Shown one piece after another: positions 52,214 through 64,000 of a stretch of DNA of 64,000 nt (within the stretch, counting starts at the first letter, position 1; every line of letters starts with the position of its first letter). The position numbers and the translations under genes were made by a program. The stretch is from Gammaproteobacteria bacterium (lineage in GTDB: Bacteria; Pseudomonadota; Gammaproteobacteria; HTCC5015): NCBI GenBank assembly GCA_026004975.1, contig BPKE01000001.1:437788-501787 (forward strand), read 5' to 3'. A model generated the notes under the pieces. It was not told the origin of the DNA, did not search any database, and saw only the letters and a list, made by a program, of their open reading frames with translations.

Positions 52214-52606
52214 TCAGCGCGTCAGTTTGCGCGCGGCGACCGCGAAGAAACTCTTGAAGAAGTCCGACAAGGTTTCCTCGACGTAATCCCGATACTCGCC
52301 GGCGTCGAAGAACGCGCCGTGCCCGTCCACGTCGATTTCGTACTGGATGTGGGGCTGTTTCTGGTCGTAGACGACCTGCATCGGCTTGCCGGTGACCGGG
52401 CTCAGGATGTCGGTCTTCTGGTTGTACTGCTTGCCGATGCGCGGGTCACCAATGTCCATGAAATGCCCCATCCACTCCTCGCGCAGCTTCTTGTAGGAGT
52501 CGGCCGGGAACCACAGGCCGTAGCAGTTGTTGCAACGGTAGACCGTGTACTCCCGTCCGTAGTTGACCTTGTCCATCGGCTCGGTGTGGCACTTCGGACA
52601 CTTCAT
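52214..52606 (-). CDS. Zinc-ribbon (zf-TFIIB-like) protein
   Basis: 130 aa. The N-terminus has CPKC-x17-CNNC (MKCPKCHTEPM, YTVYRCNNCYGLWFP), a zinc ribbon like TFIIB-type factors. The rest carries QYEIDVDGHGAFFDAGEY. Function unknown. I use the ATG at 52606; the 228-aa track ORF joins it to a shadow frame. Downstream of the TonB operon on the same strand. Confidence 0.7.
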   Translation of the reverse strand: MKCPKCHTEPMDKVNYGREYTVYRCNNCYGLWFPADSYKKLREEWMGHFMDIGDPRIGKQYNQKTDILSPVTGKPMQVVYDQKQPHIQYEIDVDGHGAFFDAGEYRDYVEETLSDFFKSFFAVAARKLTR

Positions 52607-52668: not shown

Positions 52669-53976
52669 TCAGCCCAGCGACTCGGCGATCTGCGCTTGCC
52701 GCGCCTTCTCGTTGCGCAGGTACTCGAGCCAGCGGTCGGCGAAATCCTTGGTGTCCTTGTGTTTTTGCGCCAGCTTGAAGGCCGCGATCGAACCGTCCAG
52801 GTCGTCCTTGTTGAAGCGGCAGATGCCGAGCGTCACCAGGGCGGAACCTTCCCGCTTGATGCCGCCCTTTTTCAGCCCCTCCTGGATCGCGTCGGCGCAA
52901 TCGTCCCAGCGGTCCATGCTCATGTAGGCCTGGCCGAGCCGGACGTACAGCTCGCCGTCGTCCGACTTCTTGGCCGCCTCGGCCAGGACCCGCGCCGAGG
53001 CTTCGGGTTCCTGGGCGAACAGGTAAGCCTGCGCCAGCAAACGCAGGTGACTCACGCTGCGCTCGACGATTTTGTTTTTCATTCCTTCCTCGAGCACCTT
53101 GGCCGCCTTGTAGGGCACGCCGTTGTTGAGCAACAGCGAGGCGAGTGTCACGTACTCGGACGAGCGGCTGAAATAACCGCCGTCGTAGGCGGCCTCGAGC
53201 ACGGCGAGCTGGCGCTTCTCGTCGTCCTGCTCACCGTACATGGCCGAAAGCTGGTAGAAATAATCGCCCTTGGGATAGAGCTTGACGAGCTGCTCCAGGA
53301 CCTCGATCACTTTCGGGATATTGCCGAGCTCGTAGTAGGCGGCGCGCAGCATCAGCAGCCAGGACTCCTGCGGCAGGCTGCCCTGCTTGCGGGCCAAGGC
53401 GATCGCGTTTTCCGCCTGCCTCGCGGTGCAGCGATAGTCTTCGGCGAGGTAGCAGGCCTGCGCCCACACCACATAAGCCTGGGTGGTCGGCTCGGGCGCG
53501 ACCTTGAACCAACGCTCGATGGCCTTGATCGCCTCCCTGGGCTGGTCCAGCGCCAGGTGCATCTGGGCGATGGAGAACAGGCTCTGCTGCTCCATGGCCT
53601 CCGGCAGGTTGGGTTGCTTGAGGACCTCGTTGAAGGCCCGCAGCGCGTCCGCATAGCGCTCCTGGCTGGCGTAGATGTAGGCGAGAAAACTCCAGGTGAG
53701 GGCGCGCTCGTATTCGTTGAGGCTCTGGTCCTGGCGCAGGGCTTCCAGGACCTTCAACGCCTTGGCCGTGTCGCCGGCCTCCGCCGCTTCCTGGGCCTCC
53801 GTGAGTTTCTTGAAGACCTGCTCGCGCGCGGCCGGGGTTTTGCGGGTTTTCTTCTCGCCTTGCTGCGCCCAGGCCGGCTGGTAGGCGGCCTGCAGCACGA
53901 GCCCGCTGCACGCCGCCAGTGCCAGCATCAGCGCCGCGAGCGTGCGGCGCGAGGAACGACAGTTCAATGCCTTCAT
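52669..53976 (-). CDS. TPR-repeat periplasmic protein of the TonB2-type operon
   Basis: 435 aa with a signal peptide (to about residue 38, AWAQ). About ten tetratricopeptide-like helical pairs follow (for example YERALTWSFLAYIYASQERYADALRAFNEVL, and SDDGELYVRLGQAYMSMDRWDDCADAIQEGL). TPR proteins in this position accompany TtpC-TonB2 systems of Vibrio and Shewanella, where they may organise the complex. 46 nt after the third TonB gene. Confidence 0.8.
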   Translation of the reverse strand: MKALNCRSSRRTLAALMLALAACSGLVLQAAYQPAWAQQGEKKTRKTPAAREQVFKKLTEAQEAAEAGDTAKALKVLEALRQDQSLNEYERALTWSFLAYIYASQERYADALRAFNEVLKQPNLPEAMEQQSLFSIAQMHLALDQPREAIKAIERWFKVAPEPTTQAYVVWAQACYLAEDYRCTARQAENAIALARKQGSLPQESWLLMLRAAYYELGNIPKVIEVLEQLVKLYPKGDYFYQLSAMYGEQDDEKRQLAVLEAAYDGGYFSRSSEYVTLASLLLNNGVPYKAAKVLEEGMKNKIVERSVSHLRLLAQAYLFAQEPEASARVLAEAAKKSDDGELYVRLGQAYMSMDRWDDCADAIQEGLKKGGIKREGSALVTLGICRFNKDDLDGSIAAFKLAQKHKDTKDFADRWLEYLRNEKARQAQIAESLG

Positions 53977-54022: not shown

Positions 54023-55222
54023 TCATTTGAGCCGGAACACGATCCGCCGCTTGACGTCCTTGGTCTCCACCGGCTCGCCGTTGCGCAAGCGCGGCTGGAA
54101 CTTGTACTGGCTGACCGCCTCGATCACCGCATCCTCGAAGTAGCCCGGGGGCTCGGCCTCGAGGATCTTGATGTCCGTGACGTCGCCTTCCTTCGTCACC
54201 GTGAAGCTGACCAGCACGTGGCCTTCGATGCCGCGGCGCAAGGCCCGCCGGGGGTATTCTGCCGGCGCGCCGACGATCTGGCGCAGTTCGCGGTCCTCCC
54301 CCTTGCGCGCCTGGGCGGCCGCGGCCGGCTGCTGCGCCCGCGAGGCCAGCGCCGCCTTGACCCGGGTGAGCCCCGCGGCGACGTTGTTGCGGCACTCCCT
54401 CAGCCCGGCGAGCAGGGCTTCCATGCGGTTTTGACTCTGCTCCGGGAGTTTGTGGCCGGCGGCGAGCAGCTGGTCACGCTTGGCGAGCGCCGCCTTGCTC
54501 GACTTGTCCGCCTCGGCGAGCAGACCCTCGATCTGCTTGACCGCCTGCGGGCTGTAGTTGTCCACGTCGTTGACCAGGTTCTGCGCGCCCTGGCACTGGC
54601 GTTCGGCCTGCGCCAGGCCGGCGAGCACCTCGCGGAAGAGGTTTTCCTGCTCGCGCGCCGCCTCCTGCAGTTGCCGCTGGTACTCCTCGCGCGCCTTGGC
54701 GATGTCCTCGCCGAGACGGTCGCAGAGGCGCACTTCATAGGAATTTTCGTGCACTTCGAGTACGCTCTCGCTGATCGCCAGCGCGCCCTCTTTTTGCTCG
54801 AGGTAGCGCCGGTATTTCTCTTCGGCCTCGTCGAAGGCCGCATTGGCGATCATCACCCGGGCCTCGGCGCACTCGCGCAAGCCCTTCTCGAACAGCGGCA
54901 AGGCGACCGCGCGGTCCAGGTCCCGCTTGACCGCGTCGCAGAAGGTCAGCACCCGGTCGATCTCGGGGGTCGGCGCGTCGAGCAGGTCGGGCCTGAGCTC
55001 CAAGGCCTGCTGCAGGAGCGCCTGGTAGTTCTTGAAGTGTTCGCGCGCCGTGTCCAGGTCCGAGCGGCGCAAGGTCTTGGCGGCGCGGCATTCGCGGGAC
55101 GCCTCGCGCACCAGGCTTTCGATGCGCTCGTCCACGTCACCGGCGGCCCGCGCCGCCTGGGCGAGGCCGAGCACGGCGAGAAAAACCCCCAGGGCCGCTC
55201 TCGATGTCATGCCCGCACCCAT
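54023..55222 (-). CDS. Secreted helical protein with C-terminal TonB domain
   Basis: 399 aa (start at 55210 also possible). A signal peptide (MTSRAALGVFLAVLGLAQAARA) is followed by about 270 residues of charged helix, probably coiled coil with repeated Cys (ECRAAKTL, LTFCDAVKRD, ECAEARV, RLCDRLGED). A TonB C-terminal domain closes it (about 310-399: YPRRALRRGIEGHVLVSFTVTKEGDV to YKFQPRLRNGEPV). No N-terminal transmembrane anchor typical of TonB remains after cleavage. It could be a soluble periplasmic adaptor between TonB partners. Confidence 0.75.
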   Translation of the reverse strand: MGAGMTSRAALGVFLAVLGLAQAARAAGDVDERIESLVREASRECRAAKTLRRSDLDTAREHFKNYQALLQQALELRPDLLDAPTPEIDRVLTFCDAVKRDLDRAVALPLFEKGLRECAEARVMIANAAFDEAEEKYRRYLEQKEGALAISESVLEVHENSYEVRLCDRLGEDIAKAREEYQRQLQEAAREQENLFREVLAGLAQAERQCQGAQNLVNDVDNYSPQAVKQIEGLLAEADKSSKAALAKRDQLLAAGHKLPEQSQNRMEALLAGLRECRNNVAAGLTRVKAALASRAQQPAAAAQARKGEDRELRQIVGAPAEYPRRALRRGIEGHVLVSFTVTKEGDVTDIKILEAEPPGYFEDAVIEAVSQYKFQPRLRNGEPVETKDVKRRIVFRLK

Positions 55223-55238: not shown

Positions 55239-55832
55239 TCACTTCTCGAGCTCGAAGCGGAACACGTGGCGCAGGCCGCTGACCGCCACCGGCACGCCGT
55301 TCACGACGCGCGGCTTGTAGCGGAAGCGCTCCAGGGCTGCGATCGAGGCCCGCTCGAACTGGCCGCGAGGGCTGGACTCGACGACCCGGATGTCGCTCAC
55401 GGTCCCCGCGGCGGTGACCGTGTACTCCAGCACCACGTAACCGGTGATGCCCTTGCGCAGGGCCTCGCGCGGATAGACGGGCTGCACCTTGATCAGCGGC
55501 AGCAAGCCGCCTTCCACGGGGCCCGGGCCGCGCGTATCGACCGGGGGCGGCCGCCAATCGATGCCCCCGACGCCGCCGGTCACCCGCTGCTCGACGGGCC
55601 GCAAACGGGGCGGGGCGGGCGGCGGTTCCGCCTTTGGCGGGCGGACGCGCGGCCGTTCCCGGACGACTTCGGGCGGTTCGGGCTTGCGCCGCACGATGTC
55701 GACGATCCGGGTGGTCACCGCCTCGCTGACCGGCGCCACCGGCTGGCGCACCAGCGCCGCCATCGCCGCCCACAGCGCGCAGGTCACCAGAAACGCCGCC
55801 AGCGAAGCGGGGATGAATCGCTTGAACGTCAT
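55239..55832 (-). CDS. Energy transducer TonB (second copy)
   Basis: 197 aa. N-terminal membrane anchor (FIPASLAAFLVTCALWAAMAAL), Pro/Arg-rich linker (KPEPPEVVRERPRVRPPK), and a C-terminal TonB domain (KVQPVYPREALRKGITGYVVLEYTVTAAGTV, RFRYKPRVVNGVPVAV). Carries proton-motive energy to outer-membrane receptors. It is 48 nt downstream of the first TonB gene. Confidence 0.88.
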   Translation of the reverse strand: MTFKRFIPASLAAFLVTCALWAAMAALVRQPVAPVSEAVTTRIVDIVRRKPEPPEVVRERPRVRPPKAEPPPAPPRLRPVEQRVTGGVGGIDWRPPPVDTRGPGPVEGGLLPLIKVQPVYPREALRKGITGYVVLEYTVTAAGTVSDIRVVESSPRGQFERASIAALERFRYKPRVVNGVPVAVSGLRHVFRFELEK

Positions 55833-55880
55833 GGCCCGTCCCTCCGTGCCACCTGGAAAAGAACCCGCCCGACGACCGCC

Positions 55881-56486
55881 TCAACCTTCCTTGGCCAGGT
55901 TGAAGCGGATGATGTTCCGCACGCCGGCCACGGGCACCGGCTTGCCGTTGATCACCCGCGGCTTGTAACGGAACTTCTCGGCCGCCTTGATCGCCGCGCG
56001 CTCGAAGTAGCCCGGCGGCTGCGCCTCGATCACGCGGATGTCGCGCACGGTGCCGGCCTCGGTGACGGTGAATTCCAGCACCACGTACCCCTCGATGCCC
56101 CGGGACAGGGCGCGGCGCGGGTATTCCGGCTGGACCTTGACGATCGGCAGGTAGTCCCCTTCACCGGCCTCCAAGCCGAACTTGTCGAGCGACACTTGCG
56201 GGTTGAGGTTGTAACCCGTGTCGATCTTGGCGTCGACCTTGAGGGGATCGAGCTGCGGGCGCGGCTGCACGGGCGGCGGGGCCTGCGGCTTTTCGGGTTT
56301 TTCCGGCTTGCGGTCCTTGCGCTGGACCGTCTCTTCTTGCTTGACGCGCACGAAATCCACGATCCGCCCGACCGTGTCCTCGGTGAGCGGGTTCTCTCCG
56401 GTGGCGATCAGCACGGACATCATGTAGAACAACGCCGCCGTGATGATCACAGCGCCGATGCCGACATTGATGAGACGCAGCAACAT
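55881..56486 (-). CDS. Energy transducer TonB (first copy, TonB2-like)
   Basis: 201 aa. Anchor NVGIGAVIITAALFYMMSVLIA, then Lys/Pro linker (RKDRKPEKPEKPQAPPP), then TonB domain (VKVQPEYPRRALSRGIEGYVVLEFTVTEAGTV, KFRYKPRVINGKPVPV). The short linker and position after ExbD match TonB2 of Vibrio TtpC systems. 3 nt after exbD. Confidence 0.9.
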   Translation of the reverse strand: MLLRLINVGIGAVIITAALFYMMSVLIATGENPLTEDTVGRIVDFVRVKQEETVQRKDRKPEKPEKPQAPPPVQPRPQLDPLKVDAKIDTGYNLNPQVSLDKFGLEAGEGDYLPIVKVQPEYPRRALSRGIEGYVVLEFTVTEAGTVRDIRVIEAQPPGYFERAAIKAAEKFRYKPRVINGKPVPVAGVRNIIRFNLAKEG

Positions 56487-56489
56487 GGT

Positions 56490-56897
56490 TCAGTCCTCCT
56501 CCTCGGCCGCCACCGCCACTTCTTGAACGCCGGCGTCGCGGACCGCCTCGACGACCGCCATCACCGTCTCGGCGTTGGATTCCCGGTCCGCCTGGATCAC
56601 GACCGCGCCCTTGGGGTTTTCCGCGTAGAGCTGCTCGACGATCGGTTTGAGCGACGCGCGGTCCACCTGGCGGCGATCGATCCAGATCTGGTTGTCACGG
56701 CTGATGGCGATCAAAAGGCTGGTGCGCTCCTTTTTGACCGCGGTCTGGGCTTCGGGTTTCTGGACCTCGATGCCCGCTTCTTTGATGAAGGAGGAGGTGA
56801 CGATGAAGAAGATCAACATGATGAACACGACGTCCAGCATGGGCGTCATGTTGATGGTCGCCTCTTCCTCCTGCATGACGGTTGGTGTCTTTCGCAT
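56490..56897 (-). CDS. Biopolymer transport protein ExbD/TolR family
   Basis: 135 aa. Single membrane helix with the proton-binding Asp in INMTPMLDVVFIMLIFFIVTSS and a periplasmic domain. Partners ExbB in the proton channel. Operon position DUF3450-TtpC-ExbB-ExbD-TonB. Confidence 0.92.
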   Translation of the reverse strand: MRKTPTVMQEEEATINMTPMLDVVFIMLIFFIVTSSFIKEAGIEVQKPEAQTAVKKERTSLLIAISRDNQIWIDRRQVDRASLKPIVEQLYAENPKGAVVIQADRESNAETVMAVVEAVRDAGVQEVAVAAEEED

Positions 56898-56915: not shown

Positions 56916-57443
56916 TCAGTGGTCGGTGGTCAGGTGGTCTTCGAGCAGCTCCTGTTCGGCGGCCGCCCGCCGCGACAGGTAGGTGTCGCCGATGATGCCC
57001 GAGAGGGCGGCGACCATCCCGGCCATGGTCGGGATGGTCGCCTTGGACACGCCGGAGGCCATGGAGCGCACGTTGCCGCTGCCGGTCAGAGCCATGACGT
57101 CGAACACCTCGATCATGCCGGTGACCGTGCCGAGCAGGCCGAGCAGCGGGCAGACCGCCACGCAGGTCTTGATCAGCGGCATGGTGGCGTTCATCCGCGT
57201 CACCACCTGGGAGATCATCGCCCGGCGGATCTGCCGGGCGTTCCAGGAGCTGCGCTCGGGCCGCGCCTCCCAGGCGTTGAGCACGTAGGCCACCTGGTGC
57301 TTGTGCTCGGTCCTGAAGTACCAGAGCCGCTCCAGGATCAGCGCCCACATGAAGAACGTCAGGCCCGCGATGAACAGCAGCACCTGCCCCCCCATTTCGA
57401 GGAAGCCGCGGAGCTGATCCCAGAGCTGGAACAGGCTGTACAT
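56916..57443 (-). CDS. MotA/TolQ/ExbB proton channel protein (ExbB2-like)
   Basis: 175 aa with three membrane helices. Motifs AGLTFFMWALILERLWYF and CPLLGLLGTVTGMIEVFDVMALTGSG, with GMVAALSGIIGDTYLSRRA. Forms the pore of the TonB energiser. 10 nt downstream of the TtpC-like gene. Confidence 0.92.
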   Translation of the reverse strand: MYSLFQLWDQLRGFLEMGGQVLLFIAGLTFFMWALILERLWYFRTEHKHQVAYVLNAWEARPERSSWNARQIRRAMISQVVTRMNATMPLIKTCVAVCPLLGLLGTVTGMIEVFDVMALTGSGNVRSMASGVSKATIPTMAGMVAALSGIIGDTYLSRRAAAEQELLEDHLTTDH

Positions 57444-57453
57444 GGCCGGCCCC

Positions 57454-58812
57454 TTACTTGGCGCGACGCTCGTTGTGGGCCGCCACGATCCCCGCGCTCT
57501 GCTCTTCGAGCACGTGGATGAGGTTGCGGCTGCGGGTGTTGACGATGCTGTGCAGCAGGGTCATCGGGATCGCCACCCACAGGCCCAGCATGGTGGTGAC
57601 CAGCGCCTGGGAGATGCCGCCGGCCATCAGCTTCGGATCGCCGGCGCCGAACAGGGTGATCGCCTGGAAGGTGTTGATCATCCCGGTGACGGTGCCGAGC
57701 AGGCCGAGCAGCGGCGCGACCACGGCGATGATCTTCAGGAAACCGACGCCTTTGACGATCTGCGGCGTTTCCTTGAGGATCGCCTCGCTGAGCTTGAGCT
57801 CGAGCGTCTCGGTGTCCACCGACTTGTTCTGCTGGTAGACCTTGAGGATGCGCCCGAGCGGGTTGTCGTCTGCCGGATTCGGGTCGGCGATCTGTCGCTC
57901 GACGCGGGCGGCGATACCGCGCAGGGCCAGCCAGCGGACGATCGCCAGGATCAGGCCGATGATGCCGAAGGCGATGATGATGTAACCGATCACGCCGCCC
58001 TGCTGGATGCGCTCCATGGCGTCGGGCGCCTGCACCAGGGCCGCCAGGATCTGGCCGCGCGAGGGGTCGATCGCGAAGGGCACGTAGCCGGACTGCGCCG
58101 CTTCCAGGTCGACCGCCGTGGCGGTGTAACGGCCGGCCGGCTGGCGCGGCAGCTCCACCAGGCTGTCGGTCTCGGGGTTGTACTTGAGGTACTTGCCTTC
58201 GGAGACCAGATTGAAGGCGCCGACACGCACCACCGGCCGGTTGCGCGCTTCGCCGTCCGGCGAGCTGACCCGCGCCTCGAACCGCGCGACCTCGGCGGAG
58301 GCCGCCATCTCACGGGTCATCTCGTAGACCACCCGCTGGATCTCCTCGATGGAGGCGAGCTCGGTGGCGGTCCCCATCTTCTTGGCGAGCGCTTCGAGGA
58401 ATTCGCCGCGGTTCGGATACTGGGCGCTGATGTTGGAGGTCTCGAAGCGGCCGCGCAGGTCACCGGAGACCTGTTGCAGCACACCGAACAGCTCGCGCAG
58501 GGCGCCGAGACGCTCATTGAGCTGCTGGGTGAGCTGAGCCAGCTCCTGTTCCTGACGGTTGAAGGTGTCCTCGAGCTGCACGGCGCGACGCTCTTCGGCG
58601 TTGCGCTCGGCGATCGCCTGGTTCAGCAGCGCCTGCTGGCGGTTCTTTTCGCGCAGGAATTCCTGTTCGCGCTTCTTGTATTCGGCGGTTTCGAGGATCT
58701 GGACGCGCTGGATCTGCTTGAGCAGCTCGTCCAGGGTTTTGGGCTGGGCGGCGGCGACGGCCGAACCCAGGCCCGCCGCGACGGCGAAGACAGTGAGGAT
58801 GACGCGCTTCAT
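57454..58812 (-). CDS. TtpC-like MotA/TolQ/ExbB protein with periplasmic coiled-coil extension
   Basis: 452 aa from ATG 58812, which overlaps the DUF3450 stop as ATGA. Signal sequence, long coiled-coil extension (about 25-150, NAEERRAVQLEDTFNRQEQELAQL), then an ExbB core: VIGYIIIAFGIIGLILAIVRWLALRG, APLLGLLGTVTGMINTFQAITLFGAGDP, LVTTMLGLWVAIPMTLLHSIV. Vibrio TtpC has this architecture and is required for TonB2 function. The periplasmic coiled coil may reach towards DUF3450 and TPR proteins. Confidence 0.88.
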   Translation of the reverse strand: MKRVILTVFAVAAGLGSAVAAAQPKTLDELLKQIQRVQILETAEYKKREQEFLREKNRQQALLNQAIAERNAEERRAVQLEDTFNRQEQELAQLTQQLNERLGALRELFGVLQQVSGDLRGRFETSNISAQYPNRGEFLEALAKKMGTATELASIEEIQRVVYEMTREMAASAEVARFEARVSSPDGEARNRPVVRVGAFNLVSEGKYLKYNPETDSLVELPRQPAGRYTATAVDLEAAQSGYVPFAIDPSRGQILAALVQAPDAMERIQQGGVIGYIIIAFGIIGLILAIVRWLALRGIAARVERQIADPNPADDNPLGRILKVYQQNKSVDTETLELKLSEAILKETPQIVKGVGFLKIIAVVAPLLGLLGTVTGMINTFQAITLFGAGDPKLMAGGISQALVTTMLGLWVAIPMTLLHSIVNTRSRNLIHVLEEQSAGIVAAHNERRAK

Positions 58813-59609
58813 TGGGCCGACTCCGGAGCGGGAACGGGCAGGATGACCAGATCGGGGGCGGTCTGCTTCTGGGCGATCTTGATGCCTTTGGCGATGTTCG
58901 AGCGCACGCGACCGCTGGTCACCGGCTCCCACTGGCCCGCCTCGCGGTTCCAGTAGCCGGCGTACTTGCCGTCCGGGGTCTGGTAGACCATCGCGACGCG
59001 GCCGACACGCAGCACCTGGACTTCGCGTTCGGCGCCATCGATGTCGAGGTTCTGGGTGTAGACCTCGATGGTGTCACCGAAATCCAGCTCCGCCTCGTAA
59101 GCGCGCAGCACCTGGCGGAATTTTTCCGCCACCGACACGTCCGAATCGTCCATCAGGTCTTCGAGGAAAGCGATGCGGCGCTGGCGCTCTTCGAGCTGGA
59201 AGGGCATGTCGAGCGCGATGAACTGCTTGAGCCCCTCGATCATGTTGAGCATCTGCGGCACGATCTGCCGCTGCATGACCTGGACCTGCTCCATGGTGTT
59301 GCGGATGCGCTCCATCTCGGCGCGCTGGTTGACGATCTGCTTGCTCATCTGCTTGTTGTAGATGCGCAGGCCCTCGGTTTCCTTGAGCACGGCCTTGTAC
59401 TGGTTGTACAAGTCGCGCCGCTCGTCGCTGAGCTTGTCGATCCGCTCCTGGGATTCGGCCGCCAGGCGGAGCTTCTTCTGTTCCGCGGCGATGATGTCTT
59501 TGAGCTCCGCGGCCGCGCCGGCACCGGTGGCCAGCACGAGCGCGAGCAGCGAACCCGTCAACGCTCGGCGGCGCCGCGACGCCCCCGAACCGCTGCTTTG
59601 GAATCTCAT
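58809..59609 (-). CDS. DUF3450 periplasmic protein of the TonB2-type operon
   Basis: 266 aa from ATG 59609. Signal peptide (ALTGSLLALVLATGAGAAAE) then a coiled coil (ESQERIDKLSDERRDLYNQYKAVLKETEGLRIYNKQ) and conserved DUF3450 blocks (MLNMIEGLKQFIALDMPFQLEERQRRIAFLEDLMDDSDVSVAEKFR, YQTPDGKYAGYWN). Always found before the TtpC-type gene. First gene of the operon. Confidence 0.9.
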   Translation of the reverse strand: MRFQSSGSGASRRRRALTGSLLALVLATGAGAAAELKDIIAAEQKKLRLAAESQERIDKLSDERRDLYNQYKAVLKETEGLRIYNKQMSKQIVNQRAEMERIRNTMEQVQVMQRQIVPQMLNMIEGLKQFIALDMPFQLEERQRRIAFLEDLMDDSDVSVAEKFRQVLRAYEAELDFGDTIEVYTQNLDIDGAEREVQVLRVGRVAMVYQTPDGKYAGYWNREAGQWEPVTSGRVRSNIAKGIKIAQKQTAPDLVILPVPAPESAQ

Positions 59610-59809: not shown

Positions 59810-59840
59810 AAAAAAAAACCCGCCGCGTGAAACGGCGGGT
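59810..59840 (-). terminator. Rho-independent terminator after the TonB-dependent receptor gene
   Basis: On the minus strand ACCCGCCG and CGGCGGGT pair around a 7-nt loop, followed by a run of nine T. It ends the fecI-fecR-receptor transcript about 100 nt after the receptor stop, separating it from the TonB operon. Confidence 0.93.
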
Positions 59841-59942: not shown

Positions 59943-62366
59943 TCACCAGTGGTAGGTCCAGGTGCTGCCGAGCAGCCGCGGCGGTTCCAGGCGCGCCGCC
60001 GGCGACGGCCCCAGGCCCGGGGCGCGATCGAAGTAAACGGCCGCATCGAGGGCGTTGCGCGCCCACACCGCCAGGCTCCAACGGGCGTCGTGCGGCCGGT
60101 AGTCGAGCCACAGGTCGAAGCGGCGCTGCTCGGGCCAGGCGGTGCCGCCCGCACCGTCTTCGGCCGCGCCGATGCGGCTGGCGTCCACGCGCATGCCCCA
60201 GGCCCCATCCGGGCCGTCCGCGAACAGGTAGCGCAGCGACAAGGCCAGGGCGGCGCGCGGTGCATAAGGCAGCCGCGGGCCGCCGTCGGCGACCGCGTCT
60301 TGCAGCGCGGCGCTGAGCGCGACACCCAGGGCCGGCAGCGGCCGCGCCTGGATCTCCAGCTCGACGCCCGTCACCCGAGCCGCCTCCAACACCACCGGAC
60401 GGTTCAGCCCCCAGCGATCCCAAGGCACGCTGCGCAGATCGTCATAGCGGTCGCGGTAGGCACCCACATTGATCTTGATCCGGCGGGCGAACAGGGCCGC
60501 CTGGAGACCGGCCTCGGTCGACGTGCGGCGTTCGTCGGGCAGGATGCGGCCGGCCAACGCCGCACGAGCCGGGGTGCCGGGATACACCGGCGGGCGGCGG
60601 CTTTCGCCGACGGCCAGGTAACCCGCCCAGTCCTCGCCGGGGCGCCATGTCAGCGACAGCCGGGCGGCGTCGCTGCGGTCCCGACGGCTGTCGCCGAAGG
60701 TGAACGCGGATTCTTGCAACAGCGGGTGGCCGGCCGAGGCCGCCGAGCCCGCCGCGTCCACGGCCCAGTGCTGCGCGATCACCCCGAGCCCGGCACCGAA
60801 CGTCGCCTCCAGGCGCGCGCCCAGTCGGCGAGCGACATGCCCCCAGAGCCAGCCCTGTTCGCGTCGCAGATGCTGATGCCAACGCGTCTCGCCCAGATCG
60901 AAGCCGGCCAGCCCCAGGGCTTTGTCCACACGCCCCTCGTCACGCGCCAGGCGCAAACCGACTTGCCACCACCAGGCCGCTCCCCGCCCCGGCGCCGCCC
61001 AGGCCTGCCAGTCGAACAAGGCGCCATCGCTTTGCTCTGCATGGGTCTTGACCGCGAGCGCCACGGCACTCTGGTCCAGGTCGTAACGGCCTTGCAACCG
61101 ATGGCCGCGGACGGCGAAGGTGAGGCGCTGCCCCTGCTCCGGGCCGTCGCGACGCAGGGTGAATCGCCAGCCGTGCTGGTCGAGACGTTCGGGACCGGCA
61201 CCGTCGACGCGCGCCGTGCGCTCGGGCGTCGACGGCGGCTCGAGCGCTTGGCCTTCGGCGTAACGAAAACCCGCGCCGGGCCGGATGCTGTAAAGCACCG
61301 CCGTCTGGCGGGCGCGTTCGGCGTCGGCGGCGAACTGCCACGCCCACTCGCCCAGGACCCCGTCCAGCGTCAGGCGCGCGGCCCGACCGTCGGCGGCGTC
61401 GTCCGCCACCGCACCGGCGACGAGGTTGTCGCTGAACGCCCCGTGCGCGAAGCGCGCGACGGCGAACCGCCCGGCGATGCGCTCACCCAGCGCCCCCTCG
61501 ACGCTCACCACCGTATCGACCACACCCCGCCCGCCGACCGCCCACAGCGCACTGCCGGCGGGCGTGCGCGCCGCCGGGCGGGTGGCATAGAGCAAGACGC
61601 CTCCCGCGGCCAGCGGGCCGTAGCGCAGCGCCTGGTCGTCACGCAGCACGTCGACCCGGTCGAGCTCGTACAAGGCCGTGTTGGCCGGACCGCCGCGCAC
61701 CAGGGGCACGCCGTCCAGATAGACGCCGAGCGCGGGTTCGAGCCCCAGGTCGTCGCCGCCGCGCACCACGCCGCGCAGGCCGATGGCGGTGCGGCCGCGC
61801 TCCCCGGCCAGCACGGTCAAGCCCGGCACGAAGGGCACCAGGTCCTCGGTCCGGCGCACGCCGCGCGCTTCCAGCTCCTCGCCGTCGAAGGCGCTGCGGC
61901 TCAGGCTCAGGGCGCGCTCGGGCCGGTAGGGCCCGCTCGAGGTGACCAGGATCTGCTCTATCGGCAAACCCTCGTCGCGCCGCCGCCGCGCCGCCCAGCG
62001 GCGGCGGTCCGCCGCCGGCTTGACCGTCACGGTCTGCGGATCCAGAAAGTCGAACACCAGGCCCGTGTTGGCCAGCAGTCGTGCCAGCGCCTCGCGCGGC
62101 GTGTAGCGGCCGCGCAGCGGCCCGGCGATCAAGCCGTCGGTCACCGCCCCCGGCACCAGCACTTGCACCCGGCTCTGATAGGAAAAGTCCAACAACGCGC
62201 CGGCCAGCGGCTGGCGGGGAATGTCGAAAAAGAGGGTCGGCGCCGGATCCGCGACCGCGACCCCGGCGGCGAACGAAACGATCAGAACGACGAATCGATA
62301 CAGGAACAGCGTCAGGCACCCGTAGACACGGCGCCGGGCCCGCTCGGCGCCCGCGGACGCGATCAA
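59943..62366 (-). CDS. TonB-dependent receptor with STN signalling domain (FecA/FpvA type)
   Basis: Outer-membrane gated channel of 807 aa from a TTG that overlaps the fecR stop (TTGA); there is no ATG or GTG at this position. Signal segment (LYRFVVLIVSFAAGVAVA), STN domain (FFDIPRQPLAGALLDFSYQS to LARLLANTGLVFDF) that talks to FecR, TonB box region (PIEQILVTSS), plug (GERGRTAIGLRGVVRGGD, LGVYLDGVPLVRGG, YELDRVDVLRD) and a beta-barrel ending in a terminal aromatic strand (LLGSTWTYHW). Substrate unknown; no siderophore genes adjoin. The 1128-aa track ORF adds a shadow of fecR. Confidence 0.88.
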   Translation of the reverse strand: MIASAGAERARRRVYGCLTLFLYRFVVLIVSFAAGVAVADPAPTLFFDIPRQPLAGALLDFSYQSRVQVLVPGAVTDGLIAGPLRGRYTPREALARLLANTGLVFDFLDPQTVTVKPAADRRRWAARRRRDEGLPIEQILVTSSGPYRPERALSLSRSAFDGEELEARGVRRTEDLVPFVPGLTVLAGERGRTAIGLRGVVRGGDDLGLEPALGVYLDGVPLVRGGPANTALYELDRVDVLRDDQALRYGPLAAGGVLLYATRPAARTPAGSALWAVGGRGVVDTVVSVEGALGERIAGRFAVARFAHGAFSDNLVAGAVADDAADGRAARLTLDGVLGEWAWQFAADAERARQTAVLYSIRPGAGFRYAEGQALEPPSTPERTARVDGAGPERLDQHGWRFTLRRDGPEQGQRLTFAVRGHRLQGRYDLDQSAVALAVKTHAEQSDGALFDWQAWAAPGRGAAWWWQVGLRLARDEGRVDKALGLAGFDLGETRWHQHLRREQGWLWGHVARRLGARLEATFGAGLGVIAQHWAVDAAGSAASAGHPLLQESAFTFGDSRRDRSDAARLSLTWRPGEDWAGYLAVGESRRPPVYPGTPARAALAGRILPDERRTSTEAGLQAALFARRIKINVGAYRDRYDDLRSVPWDRWGLNRPVVLEAARVTGVELEIQARPLPALGVALSAALQDAVADGGPRLPYAPRAALALSLRYLFADGPDGAWGMRVDASRIGAAEDGAGGTAWPEQRRFDLWLDYRPHDARWSLAVWARNALDAAVYFDRAPGLGPSPAARLEPPRLLGSTWTYHW

Positions 62367-63391
62367 CCGCGCCGGAACAGCAGGATCTGGTCCGCGGCCT
62401 CGACCACCCGCACGGGGTAGATGCGCTCCAGGCCGTTCAGCCAGGCATCGAGTCGATCGGCGTACACCGTGCCGGTGAAGCGCAGGCCGCGCAAGGACTC
62501 GTCGGCCAGGGCCACCGGCTTGCTGCTGTAACGGGCGACGTCCTCGAGCACGGCGGCGAGCGGTTCTTCGACGTAGGCGAGGCGCCCGGCGCGCCAGGCC
62601 AAGGCGGCCGCCGGATCGGGCACGGTGCGCGCCTGCCACAGCGTCCCGCCGTCGAAGGCGAGCGCCTGGCCCGAAGCGAGGCGCGCCCGACGCGCCGAGG
62701 CGTCTTGTTCCACGGCGACGACACCCTCGACCACGGTCACGGTCACCTCGTTGCGGCGGCGGCGGATGTTGAAAGCGGTGCCGAGCGCCTGGACACGGCC
62801 GACGCCCAGGTCGACGAGGAAAGGACGCGCCGGATCGTGCGCCACTCGGAAGTAGCCCTCGCCGGTCAGGAGGCGCAGTCGGCGCCGGTGCGCATCGAAA
62901 TGCCATTCCAGACGGCTGCGCGGACCGAGTTCCACCGTCGAACCGTCCGGCAACGCCACGCGCCGCTGCTCGGCCACCGCCGTCTGGTACACCGCCGGCG
63001 GCTCCGGCGCCGCGGCCCGCCACAGCCCCCAGCCGCCCAGGGCCGCGATGAGCACGGCGGCGGCCGCCGCCCAGCGGCGCCGGCGGGGCGCAGGCGGCGC
63101 GGCCTTGGCGCCCGGCAGCGGCAGGGGCTCGCGGCCGTCGTAGCGGTCGGCGGCCAATTCCTCGGGGCTGGGCCAGGGCAACCGTTCGCCGGGCAGCGCG
63201 TCCAGCGCCGCCCACAAGGCGCTCACCCGCCGGTAGGCCTGGCGGTGGCGCGGATCGGAGCGGCACCAGCGCTGGAAGACGTCCACCGCCTCGGGCCGGG
63301 CGCCGCGCTCGCGCAACCACAAATGCCAACGCGCCGCCTGTTCGAGGATCAGCCGGTCTTCATTGACGGTGCCGGAGCCGCGCTTGTTCAC
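62363..63391 (-). CDS. FecR-family anti-sigma/sigma-regulator protein
   Basis: 342 aa. DUF4880 N-terminal cytoplasmic region (EQAARWHLWLRERGA, RHRQAYRRVSALW), one membrane helix (AAAAAVLIAALGGWGLWRA), then the periplasmic FecR domain (VALPDGSTVELGPRSRLEW, YFRVAHDPARPFLVD, ALGTAFNI) and a C-terminal STN-like part (EPLAAVLEDVARYSSKPVALAD). Conveys the receptor signal to FecI. Overlaps fecI by ATGA. Confidence 0.92.
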   Translation of the reverse strand: MNKRGSGTVNEDRLILEQAARWHLWLRERGARPEAVDVFQRWCRSDPRHRQAYRRVSALWAALDALPGERLPWPSPEELAADRYDGREPLPLPGAKAAPPAPRRRRWAAAAAVLIAALGGWGLWRAAAPEPPAVYQTAVAEQRRVALPDGSTVELGPRSRLEWHFDAHRRRLRLLTGEGYFRVAHDPARPFLVDLGVGRVQALGTAFNIRRRRNEVTVTVVEGVVAVEQDASARRARLASGQALAFDGGTLWQARTVPDPAAALAWRAGRLAYVEEPLAAVLEDVARYSSKPVALADESLRGLRFTGTVYADRLDAWLNGLERIYPVRVVEAADQILLFRRG

Positions 63392-63939
63392 GATTCGGCC
63401 GTTTGCTCGAGCCGCGCCCGACAGTAGACCAGGGCGCGCAGGACGTACTTGCGGACCATGCTTTCGCTCACCGCCAGGCGGCGGGCGATCTCGGGATAAT
63501 CACGCTCCTCGAATTTGTAATAGAGGAAGGCGCTGCGGCACTTGGGCGGCAATTCGGCGATCACCGCCAACAGGCGTTCGACGGTGAGCACGCATTCGGC
63601 CAGTTCCTCGGGCCCGCCGTCGTCCGCCGGCAAGTCGTTGGCGTCGAAATCCGCCTCGATTTCGTCGTCGCCGCGCAGGCGGCGCCGGCGCAAGGCGTCG
63701 ATGGCGAGGTTGCGGGCGGCGCGGTAGATGAAGGCCTTGGGGTTGCGGATGCGCTCCGGCGCCGGCTCGCCCAACAAACGTTCGTAGACCTGCTGGGCCA
63801 CGTCCTCGGCTTCGTCTTCGCTGCCGAGGCGCTGGCTCAGGTACTGGCGCAGGGCGCGGTGCTCACGCCGATAGAAATCGAGGATCAGACGCCGGGCGCT
63901 CGTCTCATCGGAAGGGGCCAGGCCCCGCTTTGCCGTCAT
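63388..63939 (-). CDS. ECF-family RNA polymerase sigma factor (FecI type)
   Basis: 183 aa from ATG 63939 with GAGGACGG upstream. Region 2 (YRREHRALRQYLSQRLGSEDEAEDVAQQVYERLL) and region 4 (AELPPKCRSAFLYYKFEERDYPEIARRLAVSESMVRKYVLRALVYCR). First gene of fecI-fecR-receptor. It should direct transcription of the receptor. The upstream promoter, possibly Fur-controlled, lies mostly beyond the window. Confidence 0.92.
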   Translation of the reverse strand: MTAKRGLAPSDETSARRLILDFYRREHRALRQYLSQRLGSEDEAEDVAQQVYERLLGEPAPERIRNPKAFIYRAARNLAIDALRRRRLRGDDEIEADFDANDLPADDGGPEELAECVLTVERLLAVIAELPPKCRSAFLYYKFEERDYPEIARRLAVSESMVRKYVLRALVYCRARLEQTAES

Positions 63940-64000
63940 CGCGACCGTCCTCTGTTGCGGCCTGGCAGCCATTCTCCACGCCCTTCCCGGCCCTGGCAAG

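Follow-up and report, generated by a model that had tools for sequence, protein, structure and literature searches.

The window analyzed here, a 64,000-nucleotide stretch of a gammaproteobacterial contig, carries a compact minus-strand operon encoding TtpB, TtpC, ExbB, ExbD, two TonB proteins (TonB-a and TonB-b), a soluble TonB-domain protein, TtpD and a Zn-ribbon protein (Table 1). The open reading frame of the soluble protein has exactly the strand and coordinates given in the first-pass annotation; it lies between tonB and ttpD, with gaps of 16 and 46 bases to its neighbors. TtpB, TtpC, ExbB, ExbD, TonB and TtpD follow one another in the order of a Ttp (TonB2-type) operon, and the original placement of the gene in a TtpC operon is borne out by the gene set, by an ortholog in a second genus and by 34 comparison operons, both described below. 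Neither a Fur-box search allowing up to 3 mismatches nor a sigma-70 promoter scan returned a candidate. A small Zn-ribbon protein also follows TtpD in the other genus that has the soluble protein (L040 4716-5492).

Table 1. Features of the Ttp operon, the soluble TonB-domain protein and the upstream receptor region, in window coordinates.
Feature	Position	Strand	Basis or remark
Soluble TonB-domain protein	54023..55222	-	399 aa; alternative start at residue 5
Sec signal peptide	55145..55222	-	Predicted cut after residue 26 (ARA|AGD); hydropathy, -3/-1 rule, ortholog AHA|AET
Helical rod, three tandem three-helix bundles	54332..55141	-	AlphaFold models, Cys conservation, repeat test
Disordered linker, rod to TonB_C	54263..54331	-	pLDDT <50 at mature residues 271-295
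TonB C-terminal domain (PF03544)	54029..54262	-	Profile, sequence and fold matches
TtpB-type protein (DUF3450)	58809..59609	-	PF11932, E 3.2e-87
TtpC-type protein (DUF3450-like N-terminus + MotA/ExbB domain)	57454..58812	-	Profile search
ExbB	56916..57443	-	PF01618, E 5.4e-22
ExbD	56490..56897	-	PF02472, E 8.9e-32
TonB-a, anchored, IVDFVR motif	55881..56486	-	Profile search, N-terminal hydropathy
TonB-b, anchored, Pro-rich spacer	55239..55832	-	Profile search, N-terminal hydropathy
TtpD-type TPR protein with signal peptide	52669..53976	-	Profile search, operon comparison
Zn-ribbon protein	52214..52606	-	PF13453
Terminator-like hairpin between receptor gene and Ttp operon	59818..59840	-	Strong
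STN-type TonB-dependent receptor, upstream of Ttp operon	59943..62420	-	Profile search; start approximate
FecR-like frame, ahead of receptor	62363..63391		Sequence reading only
Sigma-like frame, ahead of receptor	63388..63999		Sequence reading only

The C-terminus of the soluble protein belongs to the TonB family, as first described: residues 321-398 match TonB_C (PF03544) with E 3e-20 and 72.9 bits against a curated cut-off of 24.6, TIGR01352 and the sequences of solved TonB C-terminal domains (CTDs) match as well, and Foldseek aligns the model with the CTDs 1u07, 2gsk (BtuB:TonB) and 6i97 (FoxA:TonB) at E about 1e-4, the receptor-bound 2grx also being among the fold matches. The protein thus shares the C-terminal domain and fold of the TonB energy transducer; it differs in having no inner-membrane helix, no Pro-rich spacer and no motor-binding motif, and in the place of an extended spacer it has a folded, Cys-containing helical rod. 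Where an energy transducer keeps an uncleaved N-terminal helix on ExbB/ExbD, both orthologs instead have a short predicted h-region and an AxA site. In the window protein 16 uncharged residues end at ARA|AGD, compared with 23 and 26 uncharged N-terminal residues in the operon's anchored TonB pair, and the ortholog has its own signal with the site AHA|AET; the earlier reading of a cleavable signal agrees with the Sec-type sites predicted by hydropathy and the -3/-1 rule. Outside this signal, hydropathy reaches transmembrane level nowhere along the protein, and inspection of the N-termini found neither an SHLS-type motif, as described for the TonB membrane helix (PMC12204202), nor an IVDFVR- or DFVR-like motif. 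Sequence, ortholog and the 34 comparison operons all support the predicted soluble, periplasmic location without a TonB-type anchor.

Signal and TonB domain are separated by some 270 helical residues that include six Cys (45, 95, 118, 167, 210 and 277), in keeping with the initial description of a helical region with several Cys; the term coiled coil is imprecise, since in the models this region forms a succession of three-helix bundles and not a plain coiled coil. AlphaFold was run on the mature form of the window protein and on its rod alone, with no real alignment depth for the rod, and gave pLDDT values of 82.6 and 87.7, respectively, with helices at mature residues 2-25, 30-50, 60-100, 104-124, 144-192, 199-228 and 235-271. 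We read this pattern in the models as three bundles of three helices each, joined where the third helix of a bundle would continue into the following bundle as its first; the overall shape of the rod is uncertain, since pTM is just 0.53-0.63. The Cys occupy equivalent positions in the first and third helices of each bundle (pairs 45/95, 118/167 and 210/277), which suggests that each modeled bundle probably carries one disulfide; simple height estimates from the model place paired Cys 7-13 Å apart along the bundle axis, a spacing compatible with disulfides or with none. Duplication is suggested as the origin of the bundles by internal repeats, of which R1 and R2 are alike in the window protein (z 5.5) and not in the ortholog, the profile comparison being weak. 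The rod has no Pfam match and no PDB match by Foldseek at E <= 0.001. Nearest in kind are spectrin repeats and the N-terminal bundles of the S-layer protein SbsC, likewise strings of such bundles, at a Foldseek TMq of about 0.3; unlike a member of the spectrin-like family, however, the rod matches them significantly in neither sequence nor structure (all E > 0.1).

A full-length ortholog (48% identity, E 1e-106) is encoded in G001, a genome of the sister genus in the same family (G001:C3:212849-214063). It shares the invariant stretch VHENSYEVRLCDRLG with the window protein and retains a signal and all six Cys of the mature region, so the soluble TonB is a real, conserved gene. The gene order common to the two genomes runs from the valS side through Zn-ribbon, TtpD and soluble TonB to TonB. 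No match to the rod was found in two further genomes of the family, G002 and the just 73% complete G003, and G002 has an ordinary Ttp operon in which TonB is directly followed by TtpD. In protein and profile searches of 369 genomes of the class and 399 of the phylum, rod matches were confined to the genome of the window, G000, and to G001; searches of genome contigs and viral contigs with exact degenerate patterns, which distant relatives could escape, found none.

The comparison set comprises 34 further Ttp operons from the class, all with a tonB gene. Every one of them encodes a single anchored TonB, which TtpD directly follows in 27. The first-pass annotation had proposed looking for the same architecture in other TtpC operons; a soluble TonB occurs in none of the 34, and the Ttp system thus normally works without one. 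Given this absence and the confinement of the rod to G000 and G001, the architecture looks, from its distribution, like a lineage-specific addition. The nearest known relatives are the Vibrio TonB2/TonB3 (Ttp) systems: TtpB-TtpC-ExbB2-ExbD2-TonB2-TtpD is the same gene set in the same order, but the window has two anchored TonBs, and a soluble TonB between TonB and TtpD, for which the six-gene Vibrio operon has no counterpart (PMC6957404). A tandem anchored pair like that of the window occurs in none of the 34 comparison operons. In the Ttp operons L200-L205 no TtpD-like gene is recognized after TonB; large ORFs lie nearby instead, some encoding about 400-480 aa and others 1000-1300 aa.

Detachment of a TonB domain from the inner membrane is not in itself new. 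Of 93 distinct TonB_C frames of the class read by hand, a sample biased to strong matches, about 88 were classifiable, and eight (about 9%) have no inner-membrane helix, which weakens the novelty implied at first: the two orthologs, one protein with a signal and TPR-like region (L031), one with a signal and TonB_C only (L012) and four lipoprotein-like proteins (L025, L032, L108 and L118). The last six are likewise exported without an inner-membrane anchor, but they lie outside Ttp operons and resemble the soluble TonB in nothing beyond TonB_C. MxcH-type receptors (NF038079) also carry an N-terminal TonB_C detached from the inner membrane, there fused to the receptor and here borne by a separate rod protein, which NF038079 matches only across its TonB_C-like part. 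Free TonB ends are thus uncommon and already known; of the rod architecture within a Ttp operon, no description was found in the literature. Elsewhere, a 121-aa protein (L159 6159-6524) consists of a signal peptide and a TonB C-terminal domain alone, the next gene encoding a protein of 1000 aa, and G001 has two paralogous exported proteins with TPR-like and TonB_C regions (L160 6013-6762 and L161 11546-12205), both at the end of a contig, perhaps where the assembly broke at a repeat.

The genome of G001, rated 100% complete in 20 contigs, has neither TtpB nor TtpC. Its ExbD genes are linked to msbA, to a classic tonB and to tol, with a distant tandem pair at C1:4133-5090, and on C3 (L040 5543-8761) TonB, soluble TonB and TtpD are kept together without TtpB/TtpC, the anchored TonB of this cassette having no DFVR-like motif. 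The cassette is apparently a motor-less Ttp remnant, and because it was kept after loss of TtpB/TtpC, the soluble TonB is not strictly dependent on the Ttp motor. Its persistence beside TonB and TtpD in this genome favors a role tied to TtpD or to receptors rather than an obligatory connection with TtpC/ExbB/ExbD, and would argue against energy relay as an obligatory function.

The structural account, comprising an export signal, a three-bundle rod, a flexible linker, a true TonB CTD, membership in the operon and orthology in a second genus, can be held with high confidence. Taken as a whole, the best explanation is that the soluble protein, exported to the periplasm by Sec, is an accessory of the Ttp system and docks receptors as an adaptor, a proposal to which we give about an even chance. 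By analogy with TonB, the CTD would bind receptor TonB boxes through strand addition, while a partner in the periplasm would hold the disulfide-pinned rod; the most likely candidate is TtpD next door, to which gene adjacency in two genera points, or a partner of TtpD. The TtpD/TonB assembly would in this way tether or recruit receptors; the soluble protein alone can draw no energy from ExbB/ExbD, and any force has to be supplied by anchored TonBs acting on the same assembly. This mechanism with TtpD is plausible, at somewhat short of even probability. In Vibrio vulnificus, both TtpB2 and TtpD2 are essential (PMC6957404). A natural soluble TonB beside TtpD, kept with it after motor loss, would give a handle on TtpD action and would be evidence that TonB heads can function at a distance from the inner membrane. 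A bolder form, in which the detached head on its rod joins TtpD in a periplasmic device that works independently of the motor, holds or relays TonB-dependent receptors and has outlived the Ttp motor in one lineage, is speculative and rather unlikely.

At the edge of the TonB box, residues 160-161 (QP in E. coli TonB) are PA in both orthologs; none of the other surveyed TonBs has Ala at 161, although 160 varies widely. Receptor binding could thus be altered, and the soluble pair moreover forms a long-branched clade (support 0.988) apart from the anchored TonBs; both observations could be taken to mean that the TonB fold is re-used for a non-receptor partner (TonB dimerization, TtpD or the cell wall) with no receptor contact at all, which we judge unlikely given that YP and the remainder of the domain are well conserved, with 51% identity to TonB-a across the TonB domain. 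The tree does not support a simple, recent duplication of TonB-a as the source of the soluble pair: TonB-a groups with TonB-b as its sister, and the soluble proteins branch off on their own, with weak deep support. An intact but unanchored CTD might also act as a competitor or brake, filling TonB boxes without pulling; uptake would then be damped, or the plug released once a cycle is complete. Isolated TonB fragments (33-239 and 103-239) do bind receptors in vitro (review PMC11658791), and the gene persists in a relative that lacks the Ttp motor; yet a conserved 270-residue rod with six Cys is superfluous for mere competition and co-location with TtpD suggests an assembly, so that competition, one of the two roles (bridge or competitor) offered by the first-pass annotation, seems an unlikely function. 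A TonB anchored by an uncleaved N-terminus, with the rod as its folded spacer, is very improbable: a maximum 19-residue hydropathy of 1.68 is not negligible, but the uncharged segment is short beside those of the anchored TonBs, the AxA site is rightly placed in both orthologs and the SHLS-type and IVDFVR motifs are missing.

The anchored TonBs of Ttp operons (window 55239-56486, L041-L043 and L173-L206) mostly have no mid-membrane His of the kind seen in the classic TonBs of the class (e.g., L035, VFALHIGSLL). A His is present in 47 of 80 surveyed hydrophobic segments, mostly from non-Ttp TonBs, and coupling in Ttp systems may differ from that of classic TonB.
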